Below, piece after piece: positions 2,321-34,351 of a stretch of DNA of 64,000 nt; within the stretch, counting starts at the first letter, position 1, and each line of letters opens with the position of its first letter. The stretch covers positions 62,001-126,000 of the forward strand of contig CANTFK010000174.1 in NCBI GenBank assembly GCA_947646735.1, given 5' to 3'. The position numbers and the translations under genes were made by a program. Source of the stretch: Peronospora farinosa. Taxonomy: Eukaryota; Oomycota; Peronosporomycetes; Peronosporales; Peronosporaceae. The notes beneath the pieces are model-generated. The model saw nothing but the letters and a program-made list of their open reading frames with translations, had not been told where the DNA came from and searched no databases.

Positions 2321-3527
2321 GTTGAAGGCCCACCCTAAGGATCTTCAGTCATTTATGGACTTACCGCTGCCCACCACCCTAACAGCCATGCAGCCGTTTC
2401 TTGGAAGTCTCAATAACTATAGCCGGTTTCTAGAAGACTTCGCGATTTATGCGTCAATATTGTACGAGCTAATAAAAGTGGATTATCACGTATTACGACG
2501 CCGGATGAGTGAGACTGAGGACACCCAGAGGAGTGACCAGGAGGAAGACCGATGGACTTGGGTGCAGGTGGCCTTTGCGATATTGAAGAATAAAAAAGCT
2601 ACCACCCCAATCCTCCGCCATTTTGATCCAGACCGGGAACATGTCATTATTGTCTATGCCAGTGAGTGGGCCATCTCGGCATCCCTGGTGCAGGAGTATG
2701 AGGAGGTGTATATGCCGGTAACTTTCACGAGTTGGACTTTGAAGCCAAACGAGATCAACTATGGGCTGGTGGACAAGGAAGTGTTGGCGCTATTGCGAAT
2801 ACTAGACCTTTGTTACACGTCGTTGGTCACCCGACCTATTAAGGTCTTGACCCGACACTCAACACTGGCGTGGATAGTCCGGTCACCGGGTCTACAAGGT
2901 CGCCTTGGAAATTGGGCTGCGCTCCTGTCCCAATGGACGTTAGAAGTGGTCAAGTGTAAGCGCGGCGAAGATGAAATACTGGGAACATTAGCGGCAAGCA
3001 TTACGCCTCGCGAAAATGTGGACTCTATTCTATCTTCAATCGTCCCCAAGAAACACCCGCGCCAAGCTATCACGGTGGTTCCTCCTACAGTCGAACCCGA
3101 GGAAGTATTGTACGTGGTCAGTTTCGATGGGTCTGCACGAGTTAAACGTGGGGGCGGAGCCTGCAGTGCTATCGTATGGCAACTCCCAGGGTGGACCGTG
3201 ATTGCAGCAGCATCAAGATATTTAACGGAGGCAACGGTAAAAGAAGCAGAGTATGAGGGCCTTTTGTTATGTTTTAGCCTACTGGAGAAATTGAATCGTA
3301 GACGTCTGGTGGTGTGCGGTGATTCCAATCTGGTCATCCGACAAATGCGAGGGGAAATTAAATGCAAGGCGCCAGGTCTCACGGTACGAAGATTGGAGGC
3401 CCCGGACCTGCTCCTTTCCTGGCCAGCCCATGGGTTTCTACACATCAAGCGTGAATGGAACCAGAGTGTGGACCGTCTCGATAACGCGGCCCTGCAACAG
3501 CAACAAGGGGTCGAAATAAATACCTGA
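2321..3527 (+). pseudogene. pol: Element A RNase H plus second, archaeal-like RNase H
   Basis: A long open stretch (2322-3527, 401 codons). It begins with the RT thumb/connection (FLGSLNNYSRFLEDFAIYAS). Next is the normal gypsy RNase H (IIVYASEWAISASLVQEY, residues about 108-125). From about residue 268 a second RNase H fold carries a D-E-D-D set: FDGSARVK, EAEYEGLL, VCGDSNLVIRQMRGE and NQSVDRL. Ty3/gypsy elements with an extra archaeal-like RNase H are known from plants and oomycetes. The open frame survives although RT upstream and integrase downstream are broken. This is the best preserved part of A. Confidence 0.85.
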
Positions 3528-4524
3528 GGAAGAGTGGAAAGACCTCGAAGAGATTAATCGTCTTCCTGAACTCTTGGTACCCAAGAATCCCAGCCCAGCA
3601 ATGCGAATTACAGCTGTCACGAGGTCTCGGGTCCGGTCCAGGATGACGACAGAGGTTGTGCAAGAAGAGGTGGTGCAACGGATACGAATTGAGCGAATTT
3701 CGGCTGCCCAAGACGAAGAAATGTGGATACGGGATTTGTAGCTCTACTTACGAAGTGAGTGGAGCAGTTTACCCGCAGAAGTGGCGTTGGCATGCGGCAA
3801 GATCGAGACGAATTACGCTTTGGATGAGGACGGACTTCTATTGTATTGCCCGGGTCTGGGGACAGCTGAAGAGGATCGCGATGGGTGGATCCGGCTAGTG
3901 ATACCCGAAAGCCTACAACAAGATTTTCTGCACCATTACCACAAGAGTCTTGAAGGGGGACACCAAGGAATCGGCCGCACATACCAGCGGATACGAAGGC
4001 ATTTCCATTGCAGAGGGTTGTTTCGAAGTGTACAGCGCTTCGTTGGTACTTGTGTCGACTGTGAGACCGGAAAAGGTGGACCCACCTTACGAGGGAAGAC
4101 CCCAGAGAATGTTCGGGGAACCTAACCATTTCAGGTCATCGCGATGGATCATATTCCATCGTTGCCTAAGTCGTTCAAGGGAAACACGGAGCTATTGATA
4201 TGGGTGGACCTGTTTACTAGTTATGTAATTGCTAAGGCCAGCTCGTCGAGGTCGGCCCAAACCGTGGCAGAAGGGTACGAAGAATGTGTATTTCGAAGGT
4301 TTGGGGCCAGTGAGGCGTCCGACACGACAGGGAACCAAGTTTCATGTCGGATTTCTTTCGCGCCTTCAACCGCATGATTGGACAGAAGCAACGGCAACTA
4401 TGGCCAACCGTCCTCAGGATAATGGAACAGCGGAAATGATGGTACAGACGATCAACAGATCTATCAAAATGTATGTGTCGGAGTGGGCCATAAATATTGG
4501 GATGCGTATGCGGAGAGGCTTACA
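3528..4524 (+). pseudogene. pol: Element A integrase, N-terminal part, interrupted by element B
   Basis: The HHCC zinc domain is intact in one frame at about 3930-4075 (HHYHKSLEGGHQG through CVDCETGKG). The catalytic core starts MDHIPSLPKSFKGNTELLIW, with VDLF holding the first catalytic Asp. After that the frame shifts repeatedly: around the second Asp (4310-4330) and again near 4380. The last codons before the insertion read AERLT, and the reading resumes at 16825 with HALN, matching AERLTFALNTAQ of element B. B therefore inserted inside the integrase coding sequence. Confidence 0.85.
4521..4524. repeat. Target-site duplication of element B, left copy (TACA)
   Basis: TACA directly precedes the left LTR and recurs directly after the right LTR at 16821-16824. 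Four- to six-base duplications are usual for LTR elements. Confidence 0.8.
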
Positions 4525-5255
4525 TGTGGTGGAGTGGGTTCTCAAAATTGTATGATGAGACCCCAAACCACTCACTGTGCCGGACTGCCGACTGTCGGAG
4601 GGGGTACCCCGATGCCGCGTATGAACCTTCTCTCACCTTGTTTACCCGTCGGCTGGCGGGTTGCACTCTTCGGAGGACTTGGTGATGATGTAAACGTCTG
4701 CCTTGAGGGAGGTAGACCTGGGGGGCCTCGAGTGGATGTGCTTCACTCGGTGGGCCGGTAGGTGGCCACTCGATCGACCTTGTCGAGAGTGGACTTAGAG
4801 CCAAATTCTTCAGGGGCGCTTGTCGTCCCTGGCCTTTTCCTTCTGTTTCAGAGATATTAACCACCTGACCTTTACGTTGCCCCCGGACCTTGAGGTGAGG
4901 GAGACCACTTCCGATAGCGGGTCTTGGGGGGTGTTGCTACTCGAACGAGCTCACAGGCCAAATATATCCTGGAGCTCTACTCGCACTTGAACTTCGCTAC
5001 GCAACTGTCTTCGACGAGGGGCCAAAATATATCCCTTCCCGGAACAGTGAGTAACTTAGAACAAGTCCTTCTTGGGTGACGGAGTCGTGCCACGTAGATC
5101 GCAAATTGAGTAGTATTTAGTATAGTCCTATCCTTTTACCTCCTTTACTCTATCCTTGCCTGATGCTTTGATTCCTTGCGTCGACTGGTCTGATCCTTGT
5201 ATTAGTTGGTCCGGAGTGGCTGAACCCCGAGGGGCCGAGGTGGATCGATGAGGGA

Positions 5256-5400
5256 CCGGGTCGACTGATAAGGGACTCAGGGCTACCAATGAGGGACCCA
5301 GGTCTACTGATGAGGGACCGGGTCGACCAATGAGCGACCCAGGTCTACCAATGAGGGACCGGGTCTACCAATGAGGGGCCAGGTCGATCAATGAGGGGCC
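5256..5400. repeat. LTR minisatellite, about 20-bp unit (left LTR)
   Basis: About seven imperfect units of the form GACCGGGTCTACCAATGAGG. The same array in the right LTR (16344-16620) has six more units. It lies in the LTR part distal to the primer-binding site (U3-like position). Confidence 0.85.
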
Positions 5401-5416
5401 ATGATTAACTCCCTTT

Positions 5417-5436
5417 GGTACCGGTTAACCGGTACC
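5417..5436. promoter_or_regulatory. Perfect 20-bp palindrome in element B LTR
   Basis: GGTACCGGTTAACCGGTACC is its own reverse complement. It is unchanged in the right LTR at 16636-16655 and lies next to the minisatellite. It could be a dyad binding site; that is inference. Confidence 0.6.
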
Positions 5437-5729
5437 CTGATACTGATTTTTCTTCGGCGGATCCTGCGGATTGTTCTCCACCAACGGTCGCTCCCCTTCG
5501 AGGCCCCTGTCTCTCTGGTCCCCTGTCCCTGACCCACGGCCTATACTACGAATCCAACTGGAGTCTGGGACCTCCACATCACAAAATTAGCACTTCACCA
5601 CAGCCGCCCCCTGCACTTGCTCAACCATACAACGGATTGAGCACGCGCATGTCTTCACTTCCTTCGTCACGTAGGTCCTTTACTGTCCCCTTTGTTGCTC
5701 ATCCATTTCTAACTCGTGTCTGTCCAGCC

Positions 5730-7581
5730 ATGTCTTCCCCTGGTTCTGACCCACCGTCTGCTGACCCACCTTCCGCTGATCCACCGTCTAAAGAGCCGAA
5801 CTCGGTCGCCCCAGCTGATTCAATCGCCCTTGGTTCTAACCCCCATCTGCTGACCCACCGTCCGCTGACCCGCCGTCTAAAGAGCCGACTTCAATCGTCG
5901 TCGCGCCTTCGGTTGACTCTCCATGTAGAGAGGCGTCTTTGGCCGACCTTCCCAGGACGGTGTCTTCGCCGTTGAGTGCTGCCGAAACTGTTGTCGTTCA
6001 CAGCTCTCCTGTTTCCACCGCTTTGCCTCCTGCCGAGACGGCAGGTCCTCCTGTCACGCCGGCCCCCATGTTGACCATCCGTCTTCCGTACCCGTCAACG
6101 TACGTGTAGCTCTGCAGGAACTGCAAGCTCTCGCGGACGCCCATTCCCGCCGCATAGAAGACTGCGAGGGTCGGCTAGGTGTCCTTCCCCCTTCGGCCAC
6201 CTTGTTGTCCACTCGTTGTGAGCGGTTGGAGGAGACATTGCGCGAAAAGTCCCGGCTGGTGGCCCAACTTCGCGAAGCTCTCCAGCGCGAGACTGCACTG
6301 GTGGACCGTCTGCGATGGAAGGTCGACCACATCCGAAGCCAGTACTCGCTTCTCGCCGCAGAGCTCGACCACGTCGACTTCTCTGACGGGCCAACTCCGG
6401 GACCAGCTCCTCCTTCAGCGACTTCGCCCCCGGTCGTATGTTCCCCTTCGAGGCCGGCAAAAGCTCTTGGCAAGCGGACCAGGCGGCCATCACCCCGGGT
6501 ACCCGCCAAAACCTCCAAGCCTCCGAGGCCCGACGCCTCTGCGATACCGCTGTCGGCAGTCTCTGGTGGTCGTTCTCCTGTCGTGCTTGAGTCTTCGGAC
6601 GACGACCTCAGCGACGACAGCGAGACCCTTCGGGCGGCTCTGGCCAAGTCTCGTTCTGCTAATCGTCGCCCTGCCAGCGCGAACCCTGTACGTCTTCCGT
6701 CGACGTCCACTCCTCCATTGAGGACCACCTCGGCTACCGGCCTCTCGTTGAAACGGGCGATTTTCGGGACATCGGACTCGGAGACCGAGTCGTCTGCGGA
6801 GAAAAACACGAGTGCGCCTCCTGTCGCGGACAACACTTCGCCCCTTCTGGCCGACTCCAGCCTGCTTCCCAGAGACGCCATGATCCCCGGATACATGCAG
6901 TCGAAGACCTTTTCCGCTGCGGAAGTGGCACCTTTGCCGGTCGACCTGGTCAATTCGTGGTGCATTGTTACAATGTCTTCCACAGACTTGATCGACCAGC
7001 TGGATCTACCTTGGGGTTGGTTTGGCCCTCCGGACGGAAACCTCGACCGGCCCCCCAAATGGAAGAGGTCGTTGGTGAACCCTCCAATGATCCAGAGATT
7101 GCTAGCGGTGGAACCTTGGGTGGAAGCTCGTGTTCCCTTGCAGCCCGTTTCCTTCCGACCTGTTGGCTGGTTCACCCAGTTGGCAGCGGCCTACATCCAG
7201 TTTGACGAAGAGCATAGTCAAGCACTTTGGGAGGCGACCCACTGCTTGTGGATCTCCAAAGACCAAGCGCGCGCGAATTCTTTCCTCGCGTCCTACTACA
7301 AAGCGCGCGCGAATTCTTTCCTCGCGTCCTACTACAAAGCGCGTAAGAAGCGTCGGAGTCGGGCGACTCGAGCGTGGCGGGAGGTGGTCGACCTTATATT
7401 CATTGCGATGAACAAGGGCCACTGCGATCTCAAAATTTTCCTGGACCCCTTCTTCCGTCATCTTCCTCGAACCCGCCGTGTGATTTATTGCTTCCCTGGT
7501 CGTGAAGAGGGGTCGGATCCGGTCGATCTGCTTGAGGCCCTTCGGGTGTCGGATTCCGCGTGGCCGTGGCTCACCCAGTAA
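5730..7581 (+). pseudogene. Antisense accessory gene of element B (coiled coil, Ser/Pro linker, conserved C-terminal domain)
   Basis: This gene runs opposite to pol, between the chromodomain gene and the 3' LTR. The intact part is 6202-7581 (459 codons). Upstream, the frame from ATG 5730 (MSSPGSDPPSADPP, Pro/Ser repeats) joins it through two frameshifts near 5850 and 6105, giving an original protein of about 610 residues. Order: Pro-rich N-terminus; coiled coil (VALQELQALADAHSRRIED through RLEETLREKSRLVAQLREAL); acidic Ser/Pro-rich linker (LESSDDDLSDDSETLR); C-terminal domain with GYMQSKTFSAAEVAPLP, LDLPWGWFGP and WFTQLAAAYIQF. Element A carries a homologue in the same relative position. No known enzyme motif is seen. 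A 36-bp in-frame tandem duplication lies at 7265-7336. The start lies about 130 bp outside the LTR, so LTR antisense transcription is plausible. Confidence 0.75.
7265..7336 (+). repeat. 36-bp exact tandem duplication inside the antisense gene
   Basis: Two identical adjacent 36-bp units (7265-7300, 7301-7336) duplicate 12 codons (ARANSFLASYYK twice) without disturbing the frame. Confidence 0.9.
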
Positions 7582-7907
7582 CGGTTGTCTTCTGTGCCCC
7601 ATCCTGGCGCTCTAGTTCCACGCCTCAAAGGCAAATTTGGGCCATCCGTTTAAATCTTCCCTTGAACATGAATCTTCTTTTCCCTTCGATCCTATTTTGT
7701 GTGCTTGTCCATCTTCTATCTCCTCTTGCCATGTTTTCCTCTGTTCTAATTGAGCTTGGTAATCTCCCTCCTTTGTTCTCCATTTTCCTATACTCCTAAC
7801 TCGTGGAAGTTCAAGGCCGCCCCGCAGGCGACCCAAGTCTTCCAACGAGGGGCTGGGCCGACCATTGAGGGACTCGGTCCACCTTCCAAGAAACTTGCTA
7901 CCGTCTG

Positions 7908-8405
7908 CTAGTTTTCATGGCTATGCATTACTTCGAAGCGGTTATGGCTTGTCTTCTTGCGCTCGAAGTCCCGGAGCAAGGCTCCGCAATTCAGTTTCAC
8001 TTCGTCCACCCACGAGGGGTCAGGGTGTCCCTTCCATTGCACGAGGAATTCTCGTTGTTGCCTCCCATACCGAGTCTTCTTGCCGGTACGACTTTCTAAA
8101 ATTTCTTCGACTTCATACTCGCCCTCTTTCAATTCCCGCACCCAGCTGTCTTCTGGTAACAGACATTCATCGAAGTCGACTCGATCTGTTCCATCCACTT
8201 TCAGCTCGCTGCTCGGTCGATCGGGGAACTCTCTGACGGGCTTGAGCTTGGAGATGTGCATGATTGGGAATAGTCTGTATTCTGTACCTCGTAACTCCAT
8301 ACGTACTGCATGATCTCCGACTAATTCATGGACTCGGAACGGTCCGTGCCATAGGTGGGCCAATTTCTTGGCATACCCCTCCTTCACTCGGTCTAGTATA
8401 GCCAT
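7908..8405 (-). CDS. pol: Element B integrase C-terminus (GPY/F-like) and chromodomain
   Basis: Residues about 18-50 carry the GPFRVHELVGDHAVRMEL module found after gypsy integrases. From about residue 97 a chromodomain follows: EYEVEEIL, REFLVQWKGHPDPSWV, then a C-terminal helix. Aromatic residues expected for a histone-tail-binding cage are present (Tyr, Trp, Trp). Element A has the same domain at about 17110-17580. Chromodomains guide integration into chromatin in chromoviruses. The piece is in a different frame from the catalytic integrase (8468-9574), so a frameshift lies between 8405 and 8468. Confidence 0.85.
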   Translation of the reverse strand: MAILDRVKEGYAKKLAHLWHGPFRVHELVGDHAVRMELRGTEYRLFPIMHISKLKPVREFPDRPSSELKVDGTDRVDFDECLLPEDSWVRELKEGEYEVEEILESRTGKKTRYGRQQREFLVQWKGHPDPSWVDEVKLNCGALLRDFERKKTSHNRFEVMHSHEN

Positions 8406-8467
8406 ACCCGGGCCCCTGGCTGAATTTTGTGGCCGACTACCCCTTCATTTTGTGCTTGCACCCGAGT

Positions 8468-9574
8468 CTAACTAGCCGCCCGTAAATTCTCGTTGAATTG
8501 GTCTCTTGCTCGCTGAAAGTGACTCTGAATCCGATATCTCCATCTCCGAGGTCCTAATTCTCGACGTCGAGTATTCACCACCGGTAACATAGTCTCAAGA
8601 GTGGTCCTAGCATCCCATCCATGTACCAGATAGAACGGTGTTTCCTCCCGTACTCTGTCTTGAGCCGTATTTAACGCGAACGTTAATCGTTCCGCGTATT
8701 CATCCCAGTCTCGCTGTCCCACGTCGGCTACGTACATCTTGAGCGATCTTGTTAGAGTCTGGACCATTCTCTCCGCAGTGCCGTTCGCTTGAGGTCGGTA
8801 GGCCATGGTCGCTCTCTGACGTTGACCCACCATACGACTGAACGCTCGGAAGAAGTCCGACATAAACCCCGGTTCCCGATCGTGACGGATCGTCTCACTG
8901 GCACCAAAACGGCGGAAAACGCATTCTTCATATCTCTCAGCTACTGTCGGGGCTGTCCGTGACGAACTTGCTTTAGCCATCACATAACCTATGAACAGGT
9001 CGACCCAGATCAGTAGTTCCGTATTTCCTTTATGTGACTTGGGGAGAGATGGTATGTGGTCCATCGCGATCATTTGGAAGGGGTACGTCGCTTCAACATT
9101 CCCCGGAGACTTTCCTTGTAAAGTAGGTCTCCCTTTCCCAGTCTCGCAATCCATGCACTGACCCACATATTTCTGAACACTCCGGAACAGACCCCTCCAA
9201 TGACAATATCGTCGGATCCGATGATAAGTACGCCTGTTCCCCTGATGGCCGCCTTCCAAACTCGTATGATAATGATGGAGGACGTCGTCTTGGAGACTCT
9301 CAGGTATCACCAATCTGGCAGTTATGTCTCGGTCGTCTCCCTTGATTATTTGGCCGGGGCAGTACACCAGCAGTCCTTCTTCACTTATCTCGTAATCCTC
9401 CGACATTTTGCTGCAGTTTCTGGCCGCTTCCACTGACAAGTCTTTCCAATCTCCCTCCAAGTATGCCTTCAACTCGAGTACCCAGATCTCCTCTTCTTGC
9501 GCATCTCGGATCCTATCCATACGGAGTTGTTGTACACACATCTTCTTGCATGACCTCTCCCGATATTTTGACAC
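8468..9574 (-). CDS. pol: Element B integrase (zinc domain and DDE core)
   Basis: An open frame of 368 codons. The HHCC zinc domain is HHYHTSLEGGHQG ... CMDCETGKG. The DDE core shows MDHIPSLPKSHKGNTELLIW, then VDLF (first Asp), HDREPGFMSDFF (second Asp) and NGTAERMVQTL (Glu). All catalytic positions are intact. The family role is to insert element DNA into the genome. It is preceded by the archaeal-like RNase H remnant (9469-10080) and followed by the chromodomain frame. Confidence 0.9.
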   Translation of the reverse strand: MSKYRERSCKKMCVQQLRMDRIRDAQEEEIWVLELKAYLEGDWKDLSVEAARNCSKMSEDYEISEEGLLVYCPGQIIKGDDRDITARLVIPESLQDDVLHHYHTSLEGGHQGNRRTYHRIRRYCHWRGLFRSVQKYVGQCMDCETGKGRPTLQGKSPGNVEATYPFQMIAMDHIPSLPKSHKGNTELLIWVDLFIGYVMAKASSSRTAPTVAERYEECVFRRFGASETIRHDREPGFMSDFFRAFSRMVGQRQRATMAYRPQANGTAERMVQTLTRSLKMYVADVGQRDWDEYAERLTFALNTAQDRVREETPFYLVHGWDARTTLETMLPVVNTRRRELGPRRWRYRIQSHFQRARDQFNENLRAAS

Positions 9575-9994
9575 CTCGTCACCGCAGATACCTTGACCGA
9601 CTGACCCCGGTCTCTAGGGACCAAAACCTCTGGCAGCCGATTGATTGCTTCTAGACCTGACAACTTTCCTCTCGGTATCGACTCAACCCCTTGATGCTGA
9701 TGTAAAGCCGCACTGGCCAACTGGTCTGCGCTCTGATTCCAGTCTCGTTTCACGTGTAGGACAGCATGGGTGGGCCACGACTGGAGCTTACTCAACGCCT
9801 TGGCCCGTAACGGTATAAACCCGAAGCCTTGCACTCAATCTCTCCACGCATCTGTCTTATAACCAGATTGGAGTCTCCACAAATAATCAAACGCCTTCGC
9901 TACATTGGCTCCAACAGGTCAAAGCCCAGTAACATGCCCTCATATTCAGCTTCATTCACCGTAGACTTGTCGAGATATTTCGACGCAGCTGCGA
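9469..9994 (-). pseudogene. pol: Element B archaeal-like RNase H, C-terminal part (frameshifted)
   Basis: The first catalytic block FDGSARVK lies in the preceding frame near 10060. The remaining blocks sit here: LHVKRDWNQSADQLASAAL at about 9700-9760 in one frame and the middle D/E blocks in another. The domain is complete in order but is broken by at least one indel between about 9830 and 10040. Confidence 0.75.
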
Positions 9995-11101
9995 CTATAG
10001 TCCATGCAGGGAGTCTTCACACAATAGCGCTGCAAGCACCTCCCCTTGTTTCACCCGGGCCGACCCATCGAAACTCATCACATACAGTTCTTCATTTAGT
10101 TCCACTGTGGGCGTCGGTAGGTCAGCCACTTGCCTGGATTGCTTCTTGGGAGCAATTGACGACAGAATGGAGTCCACACTCTCTCGAGGCGTGATGCTGG
10201 CTGCTAATGCCCCCAGTACCTGGTCCTCGCCTTTCTTGCATTTCACAATCTCCAAATTACACTGTGACAACAGAGCGTCCCAGTTTCCTAAGCGACCTTG
10301 CAACCCCGAAGACTTCACTAGCCAGGCTAGTGTAAAATGCCTTGTCAGAACCTTGTGAGGTCGGGTGACCAACATCGTGAAGCAAGTTTCCAATATTCGT
10401 AACAACGCCAGCACTTCCTTTTCCACTGTGCTATAGTTCACCTCGTTTGACTTGAGGGTTCGGCTCGTAAACATTACCGGCATGTACATGCCGTCGTAAT
10501 TCTGCACCAACGACGCCGAGATAGCCCAATCACTTGCGTAGACAATTATGACCGCCTCTTTAGCCGGGTCGAAATGTCCTAGGATGGGCGCCGTAGCAAT
10601 TTTGTTCTTGAGCATGGCAAACGCTACTTGTACCTTCGACCATTTTCCTTCGTCGTCTTCCTGGGCCGCCACTTCCTCGTTAGCCTTCAATTTGCACCTC
10701 CAAGCGTGAAAATCCACCTCTCTCAGTTCATAAAGGATCGACGCGTATATAGCATAATCTTCGATGTACCTGCTGTAGTAATTTAGGCTTCCTAAAAAGG
10801 ATTGCATAGCCTTCAGCGTTGTCGGTAGAGGTAGGTCGACCAAAGACGGAAGACCTTTTGGGTGGGCCTCTAGTCCCTCCTTGGAAATTCGATGTCTAAG
10901 ATACTCGACCTTCCGACATCCCCACGTATTCTTGACGGCACTGACCAACAAATTCCAAAAGTCACCCACGTCTAGCAGCCGCTCCACTTTCTGGCATAAT
11001 ACGTCCCACGATTCGGCCGGAACAAGTATATCATCAATGTATGATCGTCGACCCAATATAGAGAGGCCCGATTTTGCATCTGGTTCCCCTGTTGCGAACA
11101 A
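9995..11101 (-). CDS. pol: Element B RT C-terminal part, RNase H and start of second RNase H
   Basis: A 368-codon frame that starts just before the catalytic box (RSYIDDILVPAESW). It continues through the thumb (FLGSLNYYSRYIEDYAIYAS), the gypsy RNase H (IIVYASDWAISASLVQNY) and a tether into YVMSFDGSARVK of the second RNase H. A frameshift near 11100-11150 separates it from the RT fingers/palm frame. Confidence 0.88.
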   Translation of the reverse strand: MFATGEPDAKSGLSILGRRSYIDDILVPAESWDVLCQKVERLLDVGDFWNLLVSAVKNTWGCRKVEYLRHRISKEGLEAHPKGLPSLVDLPLPTTLKAMQSFLGSLNYYSRYIEDYAIYASILYELREVDFHAWRCKLKANEEVAAQEDDEGKWSKVQVAFAMLKNKIATAPILGHFDPAKEAVIIVYASDWAISASLVQNYDGMYMPVMFTSRTLKSNEVNYSTVEKEVLALLRILETCFTMLVTRPHKVLTRHFTLAWLVKSSGLQGRLGNWDALLSQCNLEIVKCKKGEDQVLGALAASITPRESVDSILSSIAPKKQSRQVADLPTPTVELNEELYVMSFDGSARVKQGEVLAALLCEDSLHGL

Positions 11102-11148
11102 ATCCTCGGTTTCCTCTGGGCAGTCCCTGGCGAAATCCGTAAAAATCC

Positions 11149-11841
11149 TTAAAACGCATTATCCAACAACCTTTGATATATCTGAGGCGCAATCTTAATC
11201 CCAAAAGGCATCCGAAGCCATCCAAATAATCCCAGTGGAGTAACGAAACCTGAGATTAGTCTCGCCCTTTCGGTCATAATGACGACCCAAAAACCACTCG
11301 CCATATCAAGAGAACAGTACCACAAAGCTCTGTCCAAATCTTCCAGTAATTCGTTAATCAACGGCATCGGGTATACCATGAGCTGGGTGAGATCATTCAC
11401 CAACCGATAGTCGATACACAATCGAATATCGACCCCATTCTTCTTCACGATAATTACAATTGGTCTGGCCCATGGCGAGGTGGAAGGCCGAATGATCTTT
11501 GCTGAAAACAGTCCCTTGATCAGGTCGGATAGCTTCTCTCTGAATTGGAAGGCTACCTTCCGTACTCGTTGCGCGATCGGTCTTGCGTTCCCCACATCGA
11601 TATCGCATATCGCTCCTCGGGCGGCCGGGGGCAAGGCGTTACCTTTGCCCATCAACAGATGTCGCTTCTTCCATATTATTTGTCGCAACCGGTCCACCTC
11701 TTCGGGAGTGTTCTCATCTGGATCTGGAATCTGTATATCTTCTAACGCAATGCCTTCGGATGAGGGGTCCACTTCCGGTACGACCGCCCACCCTGGCCTT
11801 ATGTCCTCGGCCCAAAGTTCCCCACTCTCGAAAGAACACAC
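11149..11841 (-). CDS. pol: Element B RT, fingers and palm
   Basis: A 230-codon frame holding the pre-RT linker and RT blocks: RPIVIIVKKNGVDIRLCIDY, LDMASGFWVVIMTERARLIS and FVTPLGLFGWLRMPFG. The last codons (RLLDNAF) run into a stop where element A reads through (RLLDNALYGF). This indicates an indel in B. Confidence 0.88.
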   Translation of the reverse strand: MCSFESGELWAEDIRPGWAVVPEVDPSSEGIALEDIQIPDPDENTPEEVDRLRQIIWKKRHLLMGKGNALPPAARGAICDIDVGNARPIAQRVRKVAFQFREKLSDLIKGLFSAKIIRPSTSPWARPIVIIVKKNGVDIRLCIDYRLVNDLTQLMVYPMPLINELLEDLDRALWYCSLDMASGFWVVIMTERARLISGFVTPLGLFGWLRMPFGIKIAPQIYQRLLDNAF

Positions 11842-12636
11842 CTGGTCATCTGCCTGTAAAAGTTTACCAGTTTGGCTTCATTCGCATTGGTGGTGGTCAC
11901 TGCATGTAGGTCTTCTTCAAATACACTCCGTTTTTGGGCGGTCCCCTCCTGCCAATTCACCCTCTCTTCGCACGGTTGCTCTTCTCTGTCGGGTACCGGT
12001 TGGTGCCTCATATTCATCATTGGGGTTGGGGCCGCTGGTCGCTGTAAGATGTGTGACGGAGTCTTATACTCTGGTCTATCCACTAGTGGCCCCTCTTCCT
12101 CTTCCGTTGGGTCGACCTGATGGTCGACTTGGTCGGTGGTAGATTTATAAGCCAGATTTCACCATTCCGCATATCTTCGAGAGCCTACCGAGACAAACCC
12201 TGGCGTTCTCGGAACTTGCTCCTTAGTCAACCACATACCTACCTTGGTATCTTCATGCAATGTTAAGGGGCGAGGGCTGACGTTGGTTATCTTCAAAATC
12301 GGTCGACGCCCTATCCCTTGTATCATGGTGGTCACCCATCGTTCGCCTCTCGTGACCCACAATTTCCACTGTTCTGAGGTCGACTTTTGAGAGACACTTC
12401 CGTACATCCTCCAACGGATATCTGTACATACCGACCCAATTTCACATCCGATACTCGAGTATTGTACAGTGTCCTTCGCCCGGTCAATTGTACTCGAACT
12501 TCATCGGGGAGACAGAGAGTTCCGTCGGCCAAGTCTAACCTGATACCGGCTGGGACCATGAAGTCCATCCCCAAAATTGCATCTTGGCCTACAATAGGGC
12601 CTACCCACACCTTAAAGATGTACACCAAGTTCACAT
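11799..12636 (-). pseudogene. pol: Element B protease C-terminus and PR-RT linker (frameshifted)
   Basis: Piece 12634-12332 carries VGQDAILGMDFMVPAGIRLD, the C-terminal landmark of retroelement aspartic proteases. Pieces 12407-12159 and 12083-11799 are low-similarity linker in other frames. No intact start is needed, because they belong to one gag-pol. Confidence 0.65.
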
Positions 12637-13248
12637 TCAGAGTGACCTTGATGCGAGTGCGCCCCTCCGTGGTGTATACGGCTTCCCCAATGCCAATACA
12701 TTCTTGTCGTTCACTTTCATCAATTTGCAGCCTACCTTACGAGCAAAGGCGATATCCAGAATGGATATCTCGGCACCAGTATCGAACAACAAATTTGCAT
12801 GGTCGTTGTTGACCTTTCCAGAGGCTTTCGCTTGCCTGAACCATTTAGTAGGGGCGTGGTATTTCCAGTACCCCCTAGACTCGCCTGGCAATAAGTCCAA
12901 CTCCATTACTGAACTGTCTCGAACAAAATTATTAGGCCCATTCAAAGAAGCAACATGGACCACAGGGTAATTTCCAATCTTCGATATATTTTCAATCTTA
13001 ACTGGAATACCCGTCTCCTCCTCGGGCTGTTTCTCCACATATGCAAAGATGCAACAATTAGAACGCTCGGCTCGTACCAGATTCCAACCTGGCGAGCGTC
13101 CTAATTTGCCATCTTCTCGAGTTTCTCCGGGAACATCCCTGCATGCTTGGCTGAGTTGTACCATTGACGGAACAAATTGTAGAAATTCTCCATCTGGCAC
13201 TTCCCAATCTCGTGAATCTCTCCACAACCCCGGCACACAAACAGGCAT
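12637..13248 (-). CDS. pol: Element B aspartic protease domain
   Basis: A 203-codon frame with NLLFDTGAEISILDIAFARK, the D-T-G active site of retropepsins, near residues 155-175. It is preceded by about 150 residues of linker that continue the nucleocapsid frame. The family processes Gag-Pol into mature proteins. Confidence 0.82.
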   Translation of the reverse strand: MPVCVPGLWRDSRDWEVPDGEFLQFVPSMVQLSQACRDVPGETREDGKLGRSPGWNLVRAERSNCCIFAYVEKQPEEETGIPVKIENISKIGNYPVVHVASLNGPNNFVRDSSVMELDLLPGESRGYWKYHAPTKWFRQAKASGKVNNDHANLLFDTGAEISILDIAFARKVGCKLMKVNDKNVLALGKPYTPRRGALASRSL

Positions 13249-13249
13249 C

Positions 13250-13375
13250 GATCTGATGGGTGACCCTTCCTTCCACAGCGGTCGCAGGTCAACAGCGGTC
13301 GCAGGTCAATCTTTTCCAGCAATTCAGATCTCCATGTTTCTCGGATCCGCTATAATCACATCTCGTATTTGGGAC
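13250..13375 (-). CDS. gag: Element B nucleocapsid zinc knuckles
   Basis: CDRCGRKGHPSDRC fits C-x2-C-x4-H-x4-C. It is followed by CRGCGEIHEIGKC (C-x2-C-x3-H-x4-C). These bind element RNA. A 17-bp tandem duplication at 13276-13309 disrupts the frame just upstream. Confidence 0.85.
13276..13309. repeat. 17-bp tandem duplication that breaks gag of element B
   Basis: Two identical 17-bp units lie side by side. Seventeen is not a multiple of three, so the frame 13861-13289 ends at LTCDRC and the knuckles continue in another frame. This is a direct visible cause of one gag frameshift. Confidence 0.85.
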
Positions 13376-15267
13376 CGCTGACGACGGGGCGGGTCGCTGG
13401 TCTACTTCCTGGCGATGTTGATCGGCATCCCTGGTTGGTAGATTCTTTGAGAACCTCACACTTGGATCCCTCCCCGCTTCCTTCTCCATAAGGTAGACTC
13501 GTCTTAAATCTCCTTCGTTCTCCGAAGAGTCTGGGCTGGAATCTTCAGATCTCGAGTCTTCCAGGGGCGTCCGTACTGCATGTATGGAGCCGCGATTTAG
13601 ATCTCTCGGCCTCTCGGGTAGTGCCGGTGCCTTCTGACGAAACTTGTTTGATCCAATCAGCATCTTGCCTCGTCTTGCTTTCGTCCGCTGACATGCTGTC
13701 AATACTTCCTCCAATTCTTCCACGTCCGCCAGACGCAACATAGTCAACTTGTCTGCTAGTTCCGGGTCGTCCACCGTCAAAATGTAGTGATCGACATGAT
13801 CCTTCTGAATCTTGGGCGACCCATCCTTAATCTTCATCTTCGCACCTGATTCCAAGCACATTCAGGCGGTACAGATAATCCAGTGGGGTCTCTTCCGACC
13901 TTTTCTTCGCATGGTAGTACTGGCGGGCGACCGGTACCCCCGTGCCACATAACCGAACCATGAACTCTTGGATTAAGTCCTTCCAGTTTCCTCGTACCGA
14001 GCGACCCAGTTGACGATACCAATTCTGCGCCGGTCCAGTCAGCAATCCTCCAAAAACGAGACATCGTTCATCATCTGGTGCTTGGTCTCTTATAAATGCT
14101 GTCTTGACCGTTGATACCCAGCTGCGTGCTCTGTCTTCGTCTTGGTCTCTTCCATGAAATTCTTTAAGATCCGAGGTCGCCGAGAGTTTGATGCGAGGGA
14201 CCATATTTGGCATCTGTTCCAGCGCTGCGTTCGCCATCATCGACTGAGGTCCCCTCAAATACATGTTTTCAGGGTCGAACTCACAGGAACCGACGGATTC
14301 CATATCGACGTCGGTCATCGTGTGGCCTCTTGGCATTTGTATGCCTGGATGCTGGTCATGGTGAGCGGTCGTCCTTTGCGCCTATGGTCTTCCTCCTGCT
14401 AATATCCCGTTAGGGTGTGCCCGCGGTACTTGGCGTTCATTCAAAAATCTTGCCATCGCCGCGTCGAAGAGGGTCTGCAGATCACCTACCGGGTAGGTAG
14501 GTCTTTCCCCCCAGCATCTTCGTCACGGGGCAGAGCAAATTCCAATTTTTTCTCTTTCTGATTTCCCATTGGTTGAAAACGGAATGATTTTCATTCTTGC
14601 CACGCGTCGCCGTTCCGAGACCCCGTGGTTTCTGCTCCGCGCTGCGCGCTCGGGCCTGGAGCAGCGCCGCTCCAGTAGGGCCGAGGGGCATCCTAGTGAC
14701 CGACCCAGTTGAGGACGATCCTGGGGACCACGGTGCTGCTTCCCTCTGGCCGCTTGACATCAGGTGTTGGGATGGGCCTTGACTCGCCCCTGGGCGGCCG
14801 GCGGCTCCGTACATGTGGGGACCCACCGTGATGTCTTGAAGCGTCATCTGGCTGTCCTTGGATCGTGTGTGTGTGGGTGTCACCAGAGGTGGGTGTTCCG
14901 TTGTTGGTGTTGTACCCACCAGGATCGACAGACGCTTGTGCAAATGCTCTAACGTTGTTGTGATTCTGTCGAATACCAGGGGTAGCAGATCGTCCGGGTC
15001 GAACCGACCTGCAACCATGTTCGCTTCACGAAGAAGGTTGACCAGCGCTGTGATCGCGTCCGTGACGGAGTGCAGCCGTGGCAGGGTCAACACCGGCCCA
15101 GTGAGTTGACCCCGCTGCCGGATCTCCAGGATCTTCGCGACGGGGTCGCTCTCCAGGAGCGCGTTCAGCTTGCGTTGGTGGTAGGCCCTCGTGACATCAG
15201 CGTCTGTCCATGACGCCAGTCCTGCCTTCTCGGGGCCTATCGACTTGGTGTTTCCGGGTGCCTTCAT
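13289..15267 (-). pseudogene. gag: Element B gag (three frames)
   Basis: Frame 15267-14482 (261 codons) holds the N-terminal domain (ITALVNLLREANMVAGRFDPD) and a low-complexity region. Frame 14336-13827 carries the capsid-type core (IKLSATSDLKEFHGR, FGGLLTGPAQNWYRQLG, WKDLIQEFMV, DYLYRLNVLG). Frame 13861-13289 is a charged linker to the zinc knuckles. The three frames are separated by indels near 14450 and 13850. Element C has a matching gag remnant (58289-59096). The first ATG in transcript order is at 15267. Confidence 0.82.
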
Positions 15268-15603
15268 CCGGAACTTCGTCGGCTTTGATTGCGCGATCTT
15301 GCTTTATTGTTTTTTTGGGGACCTTAGCCTCTCGGTTTTCACCGTCGGCTGATGGTCCTCTGGATCATGATAGGCTTCATGACCCAAGGTGTCCTTAACA
15401 AGGACACAGGGAGGGTATTTAGGTTTCTCTTCAATAAATTCAACCTCGACGATGTTGACCGGGCCCCTCCCAAGGCCCGGTCGGTCCTTCGATCCTTTGT
15501 TTGTTTCTTCTTGAGTCACTGGCGATCGGTCTTCCAGTGACTCTTCGGTCTTGTGCTCCTTCTTGACATGAACATCTATATCTTCTTGGGACTCGCGGTG
15601 AAA
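15268..15603 (-). other. 5' leader of element B
   Basis: Untranslated leader between primer site and gag ATG in transcript order. It has a purine-rich stretch and minor ORFs with no recognisable domain. Confidence 0.5.
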
Positions 15604-15621
15604 TCCCAGGCACGCGCACCA
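15604..15621 (-). other. Primer-binding site of element B
   Basis: On the minus strand TGGTGCGCGTGCCTGGGA starts one base after the LTR end (...CACCACA). It begins with TGG, complementary to a tRNA CCA end. It is conserved in A and C. Confidence 0.75.
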
Positions 15622-15622
15622 T

Positions 15623-16820
15623 TGTGGTGGAGTGGGCTCTCAAAATTGTATGATGAGACCCCAAACCACTCACTGTGCCGGACTGCCGACTGTCGGAGGG
15701 GGTACCCCGATGCCGCGTATGCACCTTCTCTCACCTTGTATACCCGTCGGCTGGCGGGTTGCACTCTTCGGAGGACTTGGTGATGATGTAAACGTCTTCC
15801 TTGAGGGAGGTAGACCTGGGGGGCCTCGAGTGGATGTGCTTCACTCGGTGGGCCGGTAGGTGGCCACTCGATCGACCTTGTCGAGAGTGGACTTAGAGCC
15901 AAATTCTTTAGGGGCGCTTGTCGTCCCTGGCCTTTTCCTTCTGTTTCAGGGGTATTAACCACCTGACCTTTACGTTGCCCCCGGACCTTGAGGTGAGGGA
16001 GACCACTTCCGATAGCGGGTCTTGGGGGGTGTTGCTACTCGAACGAGCTCACAGGCCAAATATATCCTGGAGCTCTACTCGCACTTGAACTTCGCTACGC
16101 AACTGTCTTCGACGAGGGGCCAAAATATATCCCTTCCCGGAACAGTGAGTAACTTAGAACAAGTCCTTCTTGGGTGACGGAGTCGTGCCACGTAGATCGC
16201 AAATTGAGTAGTATTTAGTATAGTCCTATCCTTTTACCTCCTTTACTCTATCCTTGCCTGATGCTTTGATTCCTTGCGTCGACTGGTCTGATCCTTGTAT
16301 TAGTTGGTCCGGAGTGGCTGAACCCCGAGGGGCCGAGGTGGATCGATGAGGGACCGGGTCGACTGATAAGGGACTCAGGGCTACCAATGAGGGACCCAGG
16401 TCTACTGATGAGGGACCGGGTCGACCAATGAGCGACCCAGGTCTACCAATGAGGGACCGGGTCTACCAATGAGGGGCCAGGTCTACCAATGAGGGACCGG
16501 GTCGACCAATGAGGGACCGGGTCGACCAACGAGGGACCGGGTCTACCAATGAGCGACCCAGATCTACCAATGAGGGACCGGGTCGACCAACGAGGGACCA
16601 GGTCGATCAATGAGGGGCCATGATTAACTCCCTTTGGTACCGGTTAACCGGTACCCTGATACTGATTTTCTTCGGCGGATTCTGCGGATTGTTCTCCACC
16701 AACGGTCGCTTCCCTTCGAGGCCCCTGTCTCTCTGGTCCCCTGTCCCTGACCCACGGCCTATACTCCGAATTCAACTGGAGTCTGGGACCTCCACATCAC
16801 AAAATTAGCACTTCACCACA
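15623..16820 (-). repeat. Right LTR (5' LTR) of element B, 1198 bp
   Basis: Same ends as the left LTR (TGTGGTG...CACCACA). Differences from the left copy are about ten substitutions and six extra minisatellite units (about 16470-16600). It drives minus-strand transcription of gag-pol. Confidence 0.93.
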
Positions 16821-16824
16821 TACA
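16821..16824. repeat. Target-site duplication of element B, right copy (TACA)
   Basis: Matches 4521-4524. Removing B plus one TACA rejoins the integrase of element A at AERLT/HALN. Confidence 0.8.
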
Positions 16825-17590
16825 CATGCGTTGAACAAACACAGGACCGGGTCTGGAAAGAGACTCCAATCTATCTAGTGCACGATTGGGACGCACGAAG
16901 CACATTGGAACCCACTATACCGCTAGACGGCGTGACTGTGATCCCCGCCGGTGGCAATATAGCGTACAGCGACAGTATCGCTGGGCAAAGGAACAAAGCT
17001 AACATATTATTGTGATCAGCAATGAAAAGTCGAGCCAAGATCCACAATGAAGAGGTGGCGGATAGCAAGATTGAGCATAATTCCAAGTGTGTTTGTACCT
17101 AGACCGGGTCCAGGAAGGCTATGCCCGAAAATTGGCCCACCTATGGCATGAGCCATTCAGAGTACGGGAAATGGTGGGTGACCATGCAGCTCACCTGGAT
17201 ATTAGTGAAACAGACTATCACATATACCCGTTGGTACACCTTTAGAAGTTGAAGTTAGTCCTGCAATATCCCGACAGACCAAATACCGTGCTGGTGGTGG
17301 ACGAAACGAATCGGGTGGATTTTGACGAAGCCCTGTTGTCAGAGGATAGTTGAGCTGCAGAATTGGAAGACAATGAGTATGAATTAGAGAAAAATTCTTG
17401 ACAAGTTTATGGGAAGGAAAACTCGGTATGGTCGAATTTAATGTGAATACCTGGTGCAGTGGATAGGATACTTCGACCCGACGTGGGTAGACGAGGTGGA
17501 CCTCAATTGCGGTGGACTACTTTACGACTATGAACAAAGGCAAGTCACTGGGAATCGTTTTGAGGTAATGCAGAGTTATGAGGAGTAGAG
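16825..17590 (+). pseudogene. pol: Element A integrase C-terminus and chromodomain (decayed)
   Basis: Continues the integrase interrupted at 4524. Translation across several frames gives QDRVWKETPIYLVHDWDARS, then RVQEGYARKLAHLWHEPFRV, DRPNTVLVVDETNRVDFDEA and a chromodomain-like end, each paralleling element B. Several stops (for example TAG near 17246, TGA near 17352) and shifts are present. Confidence 0.8.
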
Positions 17591-18175
17591 GGGAGAGTTC
17601 ATTTTGGAAAGGCCAAGATGATACAAGAAGGAGGTGGTATTCGTTGCATGCACAGAAATGGGTCAAGTTATATATTCAAGGGTGCAGCGGAACAAAAAGA
17701 GCGACGTATTGCTAAATTGCAGAGGAACCCGGGGCTCACCTAGAACATGGCTTAAAGTAAGGAAATCACGAATTCATTAGGGAGTTGTGAAATGTAATGG
17801 CATTATCATCTTACGATGTATACGCGGAAAGCTAGTAACGAATCTTAGGCGCTGTCGGGCGGAGAAAAATTTTAATGGAGATGGGGAACCCCGGAGGCGG
17901 AATTATTTTGGATTTTCTTGTGATATAGGATTCGCCAAGGGTCGGTATCATCCACTACCTGCAACGCCTCCATCAGCCCCGTTTAATAATTCCCTTGGTT
18001 GACCCGTGGGTACCAAAAAGACAGCTGACGTGTGGGAGTAACCGGCTGGAAAAAGGGGTCCAGCAGGATGTCCACGTCACATTGGCCTGCCACCATTTCT
18101 TAGAAATTTCTTTAGCACCCCCATCCAAGCCTTCGTCGCCTTATTCCGCCGCTTCTTTCTGGCGTTATAAACCCG
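17591..18175. other. Element A spacer between chromodomain and antisense gene
   Basis: No coding region recognised. It corresponds in position to the 330-bp spacer of B (7582-7907) but is longer. I could not identify a polypurine tract. Confidence 0.4.
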
Positions 18176-18178
18176 AGT

Positions 18179-19760
18179 GATTTACGTGCTGCTGGCGCGA
18201 AGAGCCACAGAAAAAGGAAGATGGTGCCGGTCCTCCCACAGACTTTGTCGTAATGCGTCTACGCAGGCATCTTGGATCGCCACCAGGTCAACAAGCCAGC
18301 CATTCACCGCGAAGAAGAGAGGATATTCAGACACCGTCCGCTGCTTCCATAAACGCAAGTTCATTATCAGCTGAAGCTGAGGTTCCATTAAGAGAACATC
18401 ACTCTCATCTAGGTGGTCAATGAATGCTTTGTCCATAGAGGGGCCCGGGCCCATCCACGAGTACGGAAGGTTCACGTTGGACCATAAGTCCTTTACGCTT
18501 ATCGCGTGATTTTAAAGGAAACCATCATGGAAACCGGACATGGGGCAACGTCTTCGGCTTTTGATACACTTGGCTGTGCATATCCAGAAATTGATGGGCC
18601 CCGATCGTTGGAACTAGCAGGGCCCTTGTGTGCTGGTGCCCCCTGATCATCGGAGTCGAGACTTTCAATATCGAACGCGGAGTGGCCAAAGAGCTGGAAT
18701 GATGGATCGGAATACGTGTATTCTCCCTGCTGAAAGGAGCGGTAGGTGATGCTTGGGCTATGGAGCTCGGGCCAGACTTGTTTTCCCAGTAAACCCCTCC
18801 GATTTTCGAGTAAGACTAGACTTGGGTTTTTCAGTGGACGCCGCCGATGTGGGGGAAGGACTGAATTTAAATTTCCCGGTAGAGCCCACCGATTTGAGAG
18901 AAGGAATGGATTTGATTTTCATAGTAGCCTCCGCCGACATTTGAAAAGGGCCAAATTTGGATTTAATGAATAGGTCTATTGTATCCGGATCAGCTTCACT
19001 TGCAGAAGCCGCCGGACTAGAACGGCGACGGTAGGCACGCGACGGTGCTATCGCGGCTAGAAGTGAATCAACGCTGCTACAGGACTTGCCTTCAGTGGAG
19101 CTAGAAACACATGTAATCCGGCGTTTCTTCGATGCGGAATGTGCTGGAACGCTAGCGACGGGTGAACGAGGTCTTTAAGCCCTTGAGGGTCATATATTTT
19201 TGAACATAGGCGGGTAAGGTTTAGCTGCGGCTCTTCGAGCCACTGCCAGCTGCTTCTGGAGATGGTCCAGTTGGCGAGTGACGTGTTGCACGAGAGCCTT
19301 TGAACGGGCCAGCTCGTCCTGGAGTCGCGATACTGTAGATGCCTTGGCCCTAACGTCGGCCGCGACAGTGTCAAACTTGGCCTCCAGTCTTTCACTCTGA
19401 ACCGTGAAATCCGTCACATCATCTTCATACTGGCCTTTTCAGAAACGTATGTTATACCGAGATGCCTCAACCTCAAGACAGTAGTATTTCCGGTTTGCGG
19501 GTGCATCTCGGTATTTCGCGATGGTCAGCTGATCAAATTTGTGGTTGTAGACGAGTTCCTGATCCAAGCCTCGATCTGGCGAAGATCGACTTCCTCGAAT
19601 CGAATGACTTCATCCACGCGGCACTGCAGGTCTTGGGCCCGACGATGCTCAGCCAGACAGGCCTGTTGGAGGACTCTGTGATCTTCAGCGAGGGTCTCCA
19701 CGGCTTGTGACCGTTATATTGCCAGTTGAATAACGCCCCACGTCTGAGCGACACTAGGAT
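18179..19760 (-). pseudogene. Antisense accessory gene of element A (decayed homologue of 5730-7581)
   Basis: On the strand opposite to pol A, pieces occur in the same order as in element B. A coiled coil comes first (ETLAEDHRVLQQACLAEHRR at about 19640-19695, then SERLEAKFDTVAADVRAK at 19417-19190). A Ser/Lys/Pro-rich linker follows (18758-18940). Last is the C-terminal domain: GYAQPSVSKAEDVAPCPV at about 18530-18590 (B: GYMQSKTFSAAEVAPLPV), VNLPYSWMGPGP (B: LDLPWGWFGPPD) and a Trp/Leu-rich stretch ending at 18182. Several frameshifts and stops show it is dead. Conservation between two diverged elements indicates the gene belonged to their common ancestor. Confidence 0.72.
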
Positions 19761-20100
19761 AATCAGGAGGCTTTCCGAAGAGGTCTACAATCGAAATGAC
19801 CAAGCCAGGGTCGGGTCCAGGCAGCGCGGGGGTAGACCAACGGCCAGGTGCTGGGTACTCGTTGGAGAAGGAATCGGAAGAGGTCACTAGCGTATAAAAG
19901 TTGGGTGAGTTGGTTACAGATGACCAGCAAACTCATGGACACCTACTTCTGCGTTGAAGGGATGCACGGGGTCTTGCCGCAGTTTGGAAGACCAGCGCGC
20001 AAAGAGCAGATGTGTAAAAGCGCCAGGGAAATGAAGGCCCTTCGCAAATATTATAATAATTGGCGTGAAGGGTCTCAGTAACTCTCGCGAATGAATGACA
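19761..20100. other. Non-coding sequence, presumed end of element A
   Basis: A 3' LTR of A should lie beyond the antisense gene, but I find no copy with the TGTGGTG start. It may be diverged or deleted. Confidence 0.35.
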
Positions 20101-33390: not shown

Positions 33391-33643
33391 AACGGCAGGA
33401 CCAGATGAGGCCTATCCTTTTTTCTAGTCCAAGCAGATCTTCTAAGCTAGACAGCCGACTTGCAAGCACACTTCTCACCTATATAGCGTCCAGTTTTTTC
33501 TACAGCTACGCTATGTCTAGACTGATATGTGAGCTCGTGGCACCGTTTATACCGTAGTCAGTACATCTAGTCCACTTAATCTTTAATAGACATTCACATG
33601 TTCATTATCGAAATCATCTTCTTCTATCAACCTCTTGAGAGAA
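33391..33643 (+). promoter_or_regulatory. Upstream region of NLP gene 1, shared with the other NLP genes
   Basis: AGGACCAGATGAGGCC and TTCTAGTCCAAGCAG (33400-33440) recur upstream of NLP genes 2 and 3. GTTCATTATCGAAATC (33600-33615), followed by a CTTCTTCTATCAACCTCTTG leader, recurs upstream of gene 2. TTCATTAT...AAATC resembles the oomycete initiator. Confidence 0.65.
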
Positions 33644-34351
33644 ATGAATTGGCTGACTCTTCTTGTGATTGTTCTTAGTTGTCTTGCTTCGGCTTCTTCC
33701 AAGAAGCTTTCTCTTGATAAAGTGGTTCCGTTCGCTGAAGATGCAACAACAACAGATATCAAGAATTATCTTGCTTTGAAATTCAAGCCGCAGCTTGACG
33801 TCAGTTTTGGATGTTACCCATATCCCGCAGTCGATGCAGACGGTAATACGAACGAAGGCCTTGGAGTGACTGGAATCTTTTCTATCTGTGATGGATCACC
33901 ATTAGGATCACAAGTCTATGCACGCATAATTGAGCATAATGGTTTCATAGGTATCATGTACGCATGGTACGTTCCAAAAGCCTTTATGATATCGCCAGTG
34001 TGGATTGACCCAAATTGGATGCATGTTATTGTGTGGATTGGTAATCTCAACAAAGATTCGAAGCTGCTCTCGGTCACAGTGAGGTCTCTTGTTGGCTATT
34101 CGACGTACACCCCTCCGACAGCTGATTTCATGGATGGAAATCACGTGAAGCTCAATTACCGATGGCTATATCAAACTCCACATTATCTGACACTTACAGA
34201 CAAGACTGGAAAGTATCAAGATTTAATCATGTGGAACAACATGACACATGCAGCGCGCGAGGCACTGGAACATACGACATTTTTTGGGTCCAAGGCACCA
34301 ATAAGTCGCAAAAAGTTTGAACGGTATATTCAACAGGCTTATCCATTCTAG
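33644..34351 (+). CDS. NLP-family secreted protein 1, 235 aa, heptapeptide lost
   Basis: Necrosis and ethylene-inducing-peptide-like (NPP1 domain) protein. ATG 33644 is used because the longer frame starts at TTG. A signal peptide (NWLTLLVIVLSCLASAS) covers about residues 1-18. Two cysteines in the order typical of type 1 NLPs (FGCYPYPAVDADG, SICDG) are present. MDGNHVKLNY and DLIMWNNMTHAAREAL are shared with genes 2 and 3. The histidine-rich heptapeptide that cytotoxic members need is absent; the aligned stretch reads DPNWMHV. A non-cytotoxic role is therefore likely by inference. Convergent with NLP gene 2. Confidence 0.88.
   Translation: MNWLTLLVIVLSCLASASSKKLSLDKVVPFAEDATTTDIKNYLALKFKPQLDVSFGCYPYPAVDADGNTNEGLGVTGIFSICDGSPLGSQVYARIIEHNGFIGIMYAWYVPKAFMISPVWIDPNWMHVIVWIGNLNKDSKLLSVTVRSLVGYSTYTPPTADFMDGNHVKLNYRWLYQTPHYLTLTDKTGKYQDLIMWNNMTHAAREALEHTTFFGSKAPISRKKFERYIQQAYPF

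Follow-up and report, generated by a model that had tools for sequence, protein, structure and literature searches.

An antisense gene under selection between pol and the 3' long terminal repeat of gypsy elements in Peronospora farinosa

Two Ty3/gypsy long terminal repeat (LTR) retrotransposons, elements A and B, lie in a 64,000-nt stretch of Peronospora farinosa contig CANTFK010000174.1 (hereafter the window), and each carries a gene on the strand opposite pol. As a preliminary description of this DNA had claimed, the gene encodes a coiled coil, a Ser/Pro-rich linker, and a C-terminal domain in that order, and it is arranged tail to tail with pol. The order of parts holds for both window genes, although neither is intact, that of B being split over three frames with an early stop and that of A being in pieces; open frames were found in their relatives in the same genome (46.85 Mb in 274 contigs searched). 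Homologs were found in two further element families, C and D. The antisense protein is kept about as strictly as the element's own enzymes.

Arrangement, open copies, and homology

In total, 78 loci were fetched, comprising 67 with both genes, 2 with pol only, and 9 with the antisense gene only, for eight of which (L071 to L078) pol was unfetched. The two genes were on opposed strands in all 67 loci holding both (63 distinct places, four fetched twice). When 150 pol ends, scored from 764 candidates, were compared with the antisense matches listed, 107 (87 + 19 + 1) had the antisense gene on the opposite strand, tail to tail, and at most 3 kb away, and no other arrangement relative to pol was seen among these 150 ends. 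In families B and C, the only ones with a located LTR, the open frame lies between pol and the 3' LTR, antisense to gag-pol, and the gene starts beside or inside the 3' LTR. The ATG of C is ~86 bp inside the LTR edge, and the B frame may also start within the LTR, with its start codon in or near it. The true B start is uncertain because the ratio of nonsynonymous to synonymous substitution rates (omega) before the motif MSSPGSD is 0.58 to 0.63, with few changes and equally low values in other frames.

Genome searches returned at least 108 matches with the B frame (79 of 612 candidates scored), at least 150 with the C-terminal piece of A (places of B and C included), and at least 93 with protein P0003, the search that led to family C (60 of 699 candidates scored). 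The longest open antisense frames from the first ATG encode 742 amino acids (aa) in B and ~700 aa in A, most A loci being cut at that end. Two C loci measured had frames of 873 and 837 aa from the first ATG, and family D (L078) has one of 718 aa from the first Met. In addition, frames of 905 to 954 aa were open in all seven of the C loci L069 to L075, which were picked for long frames and are nearly identical (synonymous divergence, dS, of ≤0.029). The LTR-end sequence of C is repeated with 100% identity over 503 bp, ~12 kb away, on C13, C132, and C212, as would be expected of the two LTRs of recent insertions; given the open frames, recently moved copies therefore carry an open antisense gene. 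An open B antisense gene encodes a protein with 98% identity to P0001, a Peronospora effusa protein. As a separate observation, P0009, on a contig of 1923 bp, is a single frame in which the antisense C-terminal domain accompanies reverse transcriptase and RNase H, and it may be either a rearranged copy or an assembly chimera.

BLASTP comparison of the antisense C-terminal domains of open copies gave 38% identity over 247 aa (166 bits) between A and B, 38% for B-C and B-D, 33% for A-C and A-D, and 57% for C-D. The A protein L049 also matches the window copy of B at an E value of 4e-39, and the kinship of the two genes proposed in the preliminary description is thus above chance. Its statement that A and B differ strongly elsewhere was too strong, as the integrase-chromodomain regions of A, B, and C are 70 to 73% identical, compared with 33 to 38% for the antisense C-terminal domain; the antisense protein is therefore more divergent between families, yet recognisable. 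An alignment of 26 members contains invariant W, H, R, and C and three invariant D positions, which fall partly in a basic RK.RR stretch and in CDLD..LD. With the C-terminal region of P0003 as the query, 28 further proteins were retrieved at E values of ≤0.01 among ~5.8 billion, and the named relatives come from Peronospora matthiolae, Phytophthora fragariaefolia, Phytophthora nicotianae, Phytophthora ramorum, Phytophthora fragariae, Phytophthora rubi, and Nothophytophthora. They are labelled "unnamed," "hypothetical," or "uncharacterized"; three entries have a UniRef name starting with "Autophagy-related prote." This spread across species is given by protein matches, and adjacency to pol was seen in this genome alone.

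The fold prediction suggested earlier for the C-terminal domain yielded a confident, helical model with a predicted template modelling score (pTM) of 0.83, and the full-length model, of low confidence, consists of long helices followed by a disordered linker. A motif resembling a nuclear localization signal (NLS), K[KR]x[KR], occurs in seven of seven proteins examined, a frequency not compared with chance. The coiled coil and the three autophagy-related names would suit a captured host gene or a nested element carried along as a passenger. However, the gene occupies one place and one orientation in four element families, all of the named database matches are oomycete proteins, and no domain was found for the C-terminal part in Pfam scans, which makes a passenger improbable.

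Selection on the antisense frame

Only loci with long open frames were taken for the omega analyses, which favours less decayed copies. The pairwise set for near-identical copies included 14 of 30 B, 14 of 30 A, and 7 of 10 C/D loci, and the maximum-likelihood (ML) set included 13 B, 11 A, and 8 C/D loci. By the NG86 method, four pairs from two B subfamilies gave an antisense-frame omega of 0.27 to 0.35 over the open reading frame (ORF). In the same pairs, the values were 0.16 to 0.20 in the C-terminal domain and 0.15 to 0.23 in the coiled coil, lower than in any of the remaining five frames. Over the ORF, omega was ≥1.06 in four of those frames and 0.34 to 0.44 in the fifth, the mirrored sense frame. 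This mirrored frame is open over 397 aa in many B copies (e.g., L013, 1440 to 2630, minus strand), and in the Ser/Pro-rich N-terminus its omega falls slightly below the antisense value; both observations would be compatible with a gene in the mirrored frame, of which the antisense frame would be a shadow. However, the antisense omega was the lower one in all four B pairs over the ORF, the coiled coil, the linker, and the C-terminal domain. In addition, most of the C-terminal domain is not covered by the mirrored frame, and the longest mirrored frames in two C loci reach only 205 and 194 aa. The 397-aa frame of B is probably the shadow, and the reverse assignment is extremely unlikely.

ML estimates, obtained with kappa (the transition/transversion ratio) estimated and with omega = 1 fitted with kappa on a grid, were 0.408 for B (twice the log-likelihood difference, 28.4), 0.41 for A (14.6), and 0.073 for C with D (121.1), each of which rejects 1, compared with 0.499 (B) and 0.495 (A) for pol. 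For changes common to two or more copies, the ratio of nonsynonymous to synonymous changes (pN/pS) in the antisense frame was 0.19 in B and 0.17 in A, while single-copy changes gave 0.59 and 0.49, respectively. The corresponding values for pol were 0.17 and 0.06 for shared changes and 0.40 and 0.46 for single-copy changes. Changes shared by copies reflect transmitting lineages, and the pattern is that of a gene which is under selection as long as the element is mobile and which decays once a copy has inserted. The selection on the protein suspected in the preliminary description is thus borne out by frame-specific constraint, by omega, and by relatives in other element families and species. 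Ratios near 1, which it had named as contrary evidence, were not obtained by ML (0.41 in both B and A, against 0.50 for pol in both), although near-identical pairs do stand at about 1 or more.

The same results bear on whether the antisense RNA itself matters, as a silencing decoy or a source of double-stranded RNA, with the open frame being incidental. Such a transcript would be the complement of the genomic RNA at its 3' end, and small RNAs of both strands are described along the two most abundant Gypsy elements of Phytophthora infestans in the passages cited (PMC3522703). However, amino acid constraint in one frame with omega well below 1, 38% protein identity between families, and open frames of 600 to 870 aa in several families make this explanation very unlikely.

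The elements in the window

Element B was inserted within the integrase of element A, with matches to the plus-strand A pol on both sides (3243 to 4483 and then 16830 to 17594), and TACA flanks it on each side (4521 to 4524 and 16821 to 16824). Its LTRs share a stretch of 876 bp with 98.9% identity and another of 374 bp with 91.4% identity. The antisense protein of the window copy is divided among three frames (5355 to 5843, 5840 to 6073, and 6064 to 7650), the first part starting within the LTR, where coding is uncertain. A 550-aa open frame downstream of the B chromodomain (5929 to 7581, plus strand) has its first ATG only at 6880 and its stop ~24 codons before the end of the relative L013, to which similarity continues past the stop to 7650. 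Tandem repeats in the B LTR at 5229 to 5400 would be read as GSTNEGP repeats if the antisense frame reaches into the LTR, and tandem repeats are also found in the C LTR (L069, 1 to 83). In a third element of the same kind, a weak 59-bp LTR-side match (61510 to 61568, E value of 7e-5) follows almost directly after the pol end, and this element appears to be without an antisense gene.

Table 1. Coordinates of the gypsy elements and their genes in the window
Feature	Position	Strand	Evidence or remark
Element B	4525-16820	- (sense strand)	LTR pair
3' LTR of B	4525-5602	-	Repeat of 15623-16820
5' LTR of B	15623-16820	-	Repeat of 4525-5602
Antisense gene of B, N-terminal Ser/Pro-rich part	5355-5843 and 5840-6073 (two frames)	+	tblastn with L013 frame, 89% and 83% identity
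Antisense gene of B: coiled coil, basic Ser/Pro-rich linker, C-terminal domain	6064-7581	+	One open frame, 90% identity to L013 protein
C-terminal domain of B antisense protein	6880-7581	+	Ends ~24 codons early relative to L013; short tandem duplication within
Chromodomain, pol end of B	7908-8405	-	Chromo E 8e-7, above cut-off
Integrase of B	8468-9541	-	Integrase_H2C2 4e-16; rve 4e-6 (rve under curated cut-off)
Reverse transcriptase and gypsy RNase H of B	9995-11652 (two frames)	-	RVT_1, RT_RNaseH
Element A pol: gypsy RNase H, then second, archaeal-like RNase H (RVT_3)	2355-3527	+	RT_RNaseH 1e-18, RVT_3 4e-10
Element A integrase C-terminal part and chromodomain, beyond B	16830-17594, several frames	+	36-54% identity to C pol, 34-61% to B pol
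Antisense gene of element A, decayed	17848-19767, several frames	-	53-70% identity to L049 protein
Parts of A antisense gene	C-terminal domain ~17848-18600; coiled coil ~19190-19767	-	L049 comparison
Third element of same kind	pol match 59221-61261 (+); end region 61175-61568		Spacer match 61175-61470 (80%)

Other features of the window include a 746-aa ORF (23174 to 25414, minus strand) with an N-terminal RYLRRN...EDR stretch, which gives it the look of an RXLR-type effector built of repeated helical units. Inverted-repeat partners of this ORF at 43811 to 44097 (87%) and 45509 to 45816 (78%) suggest a paralogue on the other strand within 43811 to 45816. Direct repeats at 49782 to 50081 and 56075 to 56374, 98% identical and 6293 bp apart, are perhaps the LTRs of a further element, and inverted repeats at 33642 to 33865 and 35034 to 35257, 93% complementary and 1168 bp apart, are possibly a small DNA transposon.

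Known antisense genes and possible function

By their predicted domains, the elements would fit the Chronos clade, Ty3/gypsy elements of Peronosporales and Pythiales that, like those described here, combine dual RNase H and a chromodomain in the same host order in the passages cited (PMC5348765). Element A has the dual RNase H (RT_RNaseH then RVT_3, 2355 to 3524), and RVT_3 was also found in C (L070, the locus being cut there); only the gypsy RNase H was found in B within the pol pieces searched. The chromodomain after the integrase is above the cut-off in B (Chromo, E value of 8e-7) and below the curated cut-off in C (1e-4). The main text of the Chronos paper contains the words "antisense" and "opposite" 0 times each (PMC5348765).

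An antisense gene at this place is also found in plant Tat elements such as Grande and in human T-cell leukemia virus type 1 (HTLV-1), a parallel drawn in the preliminary description that the cited passages bear out (PMC7264820, PMC11963269, PMC10186651). In plant Tat/Retand elements, aORF-3R genes lie antisense between pol and the 3' LTR in most copies and are conserved like other element proteins, with Grande gene23, RIRE2, and Retand ORF4 with TRP28 (PF04195) as examples (PMC7264820, PMC11963269). Grande gene23 is transcribed from its own upstream promoter, and its protein is nuclear (PMC7264820). Unlike these, the genes described here have an oomycete host, a chromodomain in the element, and a C-terminal domain without a listed relative. 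TRP28 was not among all 6 Pfam families listed for 7 members or among the 25 of 66 listed for a larger scan. A search for TRP28 gave 0 matches in this genome at an E value of ≤1, although no positive control was available, since the 14 control genomes were also all below the cut-off. The convergence of plant and oomycete elements proposed earlier agrees with the lack of a TRP28 match, and a separate origin is favoured but not proven.

The HBZ and APH genes of HTLV-1 to -4 are likewise antisense genes under the 3' LTR, and their products are mostly nuclear and lower provirus expression (PMC10186651). The predicted oomycete protein differs from HBZ in its size of 600 to 870 aa and in that no bZIP is present among all 6 Pfam families listed at E values of ≤0.1 for 7 members. 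HBZ has ~200 aa and self-associates by a helical zipper, which is similar in kind to the coiled coil. A fungal element, Boty of Botrytis and Sclerotinia, is described as having an antisense ORF at the same place and is likened here by that description only (PMC7264820). The position and orientation are thus of an already known kind (plants, deltaretroviruses, and Boty), and the system is not undescribed as a general class; this protein and the oomycete host lineage look new, with no report of an antisense gene in oomycete LTR elements among the literature titles listed.

The antisense gene may encode a nuclear trans-acting regulator, that is, an antisense-transcribed accessory protein of Chronos-like oomycete elements that controls the expression or silencing of their own LTRs, to which a probability of about 0.5 is given. 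A separate mRNA would be made from an antisense promoter within or adjacent to the 3' LTR (4525 to 5602 in B), the coiled coil would allow the protein to self-associate, and the basic Ser/Pro-rich linker would take it into the nucleus. The helical C-terminal domain would contact nucleic acid or chromatin of the element, and the protein would act in trans on sibling copies, tuning LTR transcription or silencing as HBZ-type and Grande gene23-type proteins are thought to do.

Copies that lost the gene bear on its action in trans. Two B copies (L004 and L007) keep the LTR and the pol end, and their LTR-side sequence passes into the pol-side spacer at differing points. Of 40 candidates scored, six at C-related places have neither the linker nor the C-terminal domain. 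In five of the six, the match restarts at one and the same query position, and in four of those five the spacer is only 69 to 70% identical to that of C, which suggests one loser line that multiplied. Among the 43 pol ends for which no gene was listed, some belong to pol frames that run open for >1700 aa, absence of the gene there meaning only that it is unlisted in the scored list. The gene thus seems not to be needed in cis, because copies without it keep the pol end and seem to have multiplied. A product shared in trans is suggested, since it would explain both the selection and the losers, as a mild benefit also would.

Several observations weigh against a trans-acting regulator. The matches listed included no antisense gene for the 43 pol ends mentioned above (of 150), and the gene is also missing from two of the eight pol-first loci (L001 to L008); as the losers seem to have multiplied, it may be only mildly useful. 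Constraint is only mild in A, in which pairs gave omega values of 0.49 to 0.67 for the antisense frame, 0.51 to 0.80 for the mirrored frame, and 0.81 to 1.48 for the others. In the B stretch up to MSSPGSD, other frames are as low in omega as the antisense frame. Near-identical copies in B and A gave omega values of ~1.1 to 6.5, based on few changes, which is explained by decay following insertion. No structural match to the C-terminal model, including any known DNA-binding fold, was obtained in the searches made. In addition, a search of the antisense strand for the consensus oomycete core-promoter pattern gave no match in the LTR region of B with ≤4 mismatches and gave one in C only at 5.

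Alternatively, the protein may be a replication or structural cofactor, such as a partner of Gag or of the integration complex or a factor for nuclear import of the complementary DNA, rather than a regulator. Its pol-like constraint and NLS-like motifs are compatible with this, its coiled coil suits assembly, and copies that have no gene of their own could obtain a cofactor in trans as well. PNMA, a gag-related family, was matched at an E value of 5e-4 in 2 of the 26 members, among coiled-coil look-alikes. However, Pfam scans of the antisense proteins gave no prominent match to a Gag, capsid, or integrase family, and the simpler way to make a cofactor would be together with gag-pol, from the sense RNA; antisense expression apart from gag-pol would suggest separate timing. 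A cofactor is therefore rather unlikely.

More broadly, and tentatively, the Chronos elements of Peronosporaceae might possess a third gene that acts in trans. Its product would be a nuclear factor, encoded antisense and containing a novel helical domain, that controls the expression or silencing of every copy of a family, and copies that have deleted the gene would exploit it. In that case, antisense control genes at the 3' LTR might have had separate origins in the Tat elements of plants, in deltaretroviruses, and in oomycete Chronos elements. If this is true, plant Tat and oomycete Chronos elements share dual RNase H besides a separately arisen antisense gene.

LTR elements that retain an antisense gene under selection are now seen in oomycetes as well, here with a protein family without listed relatives. 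The purpose of such genes is now open to comparison between families with the gene and natural copies that are without it but retain pol. The findings also suggest that genes of crop pathogens now named "hypothetical" or "autophagy-related" should be relabelled as transposon genes, once their position beside pol has been checked.

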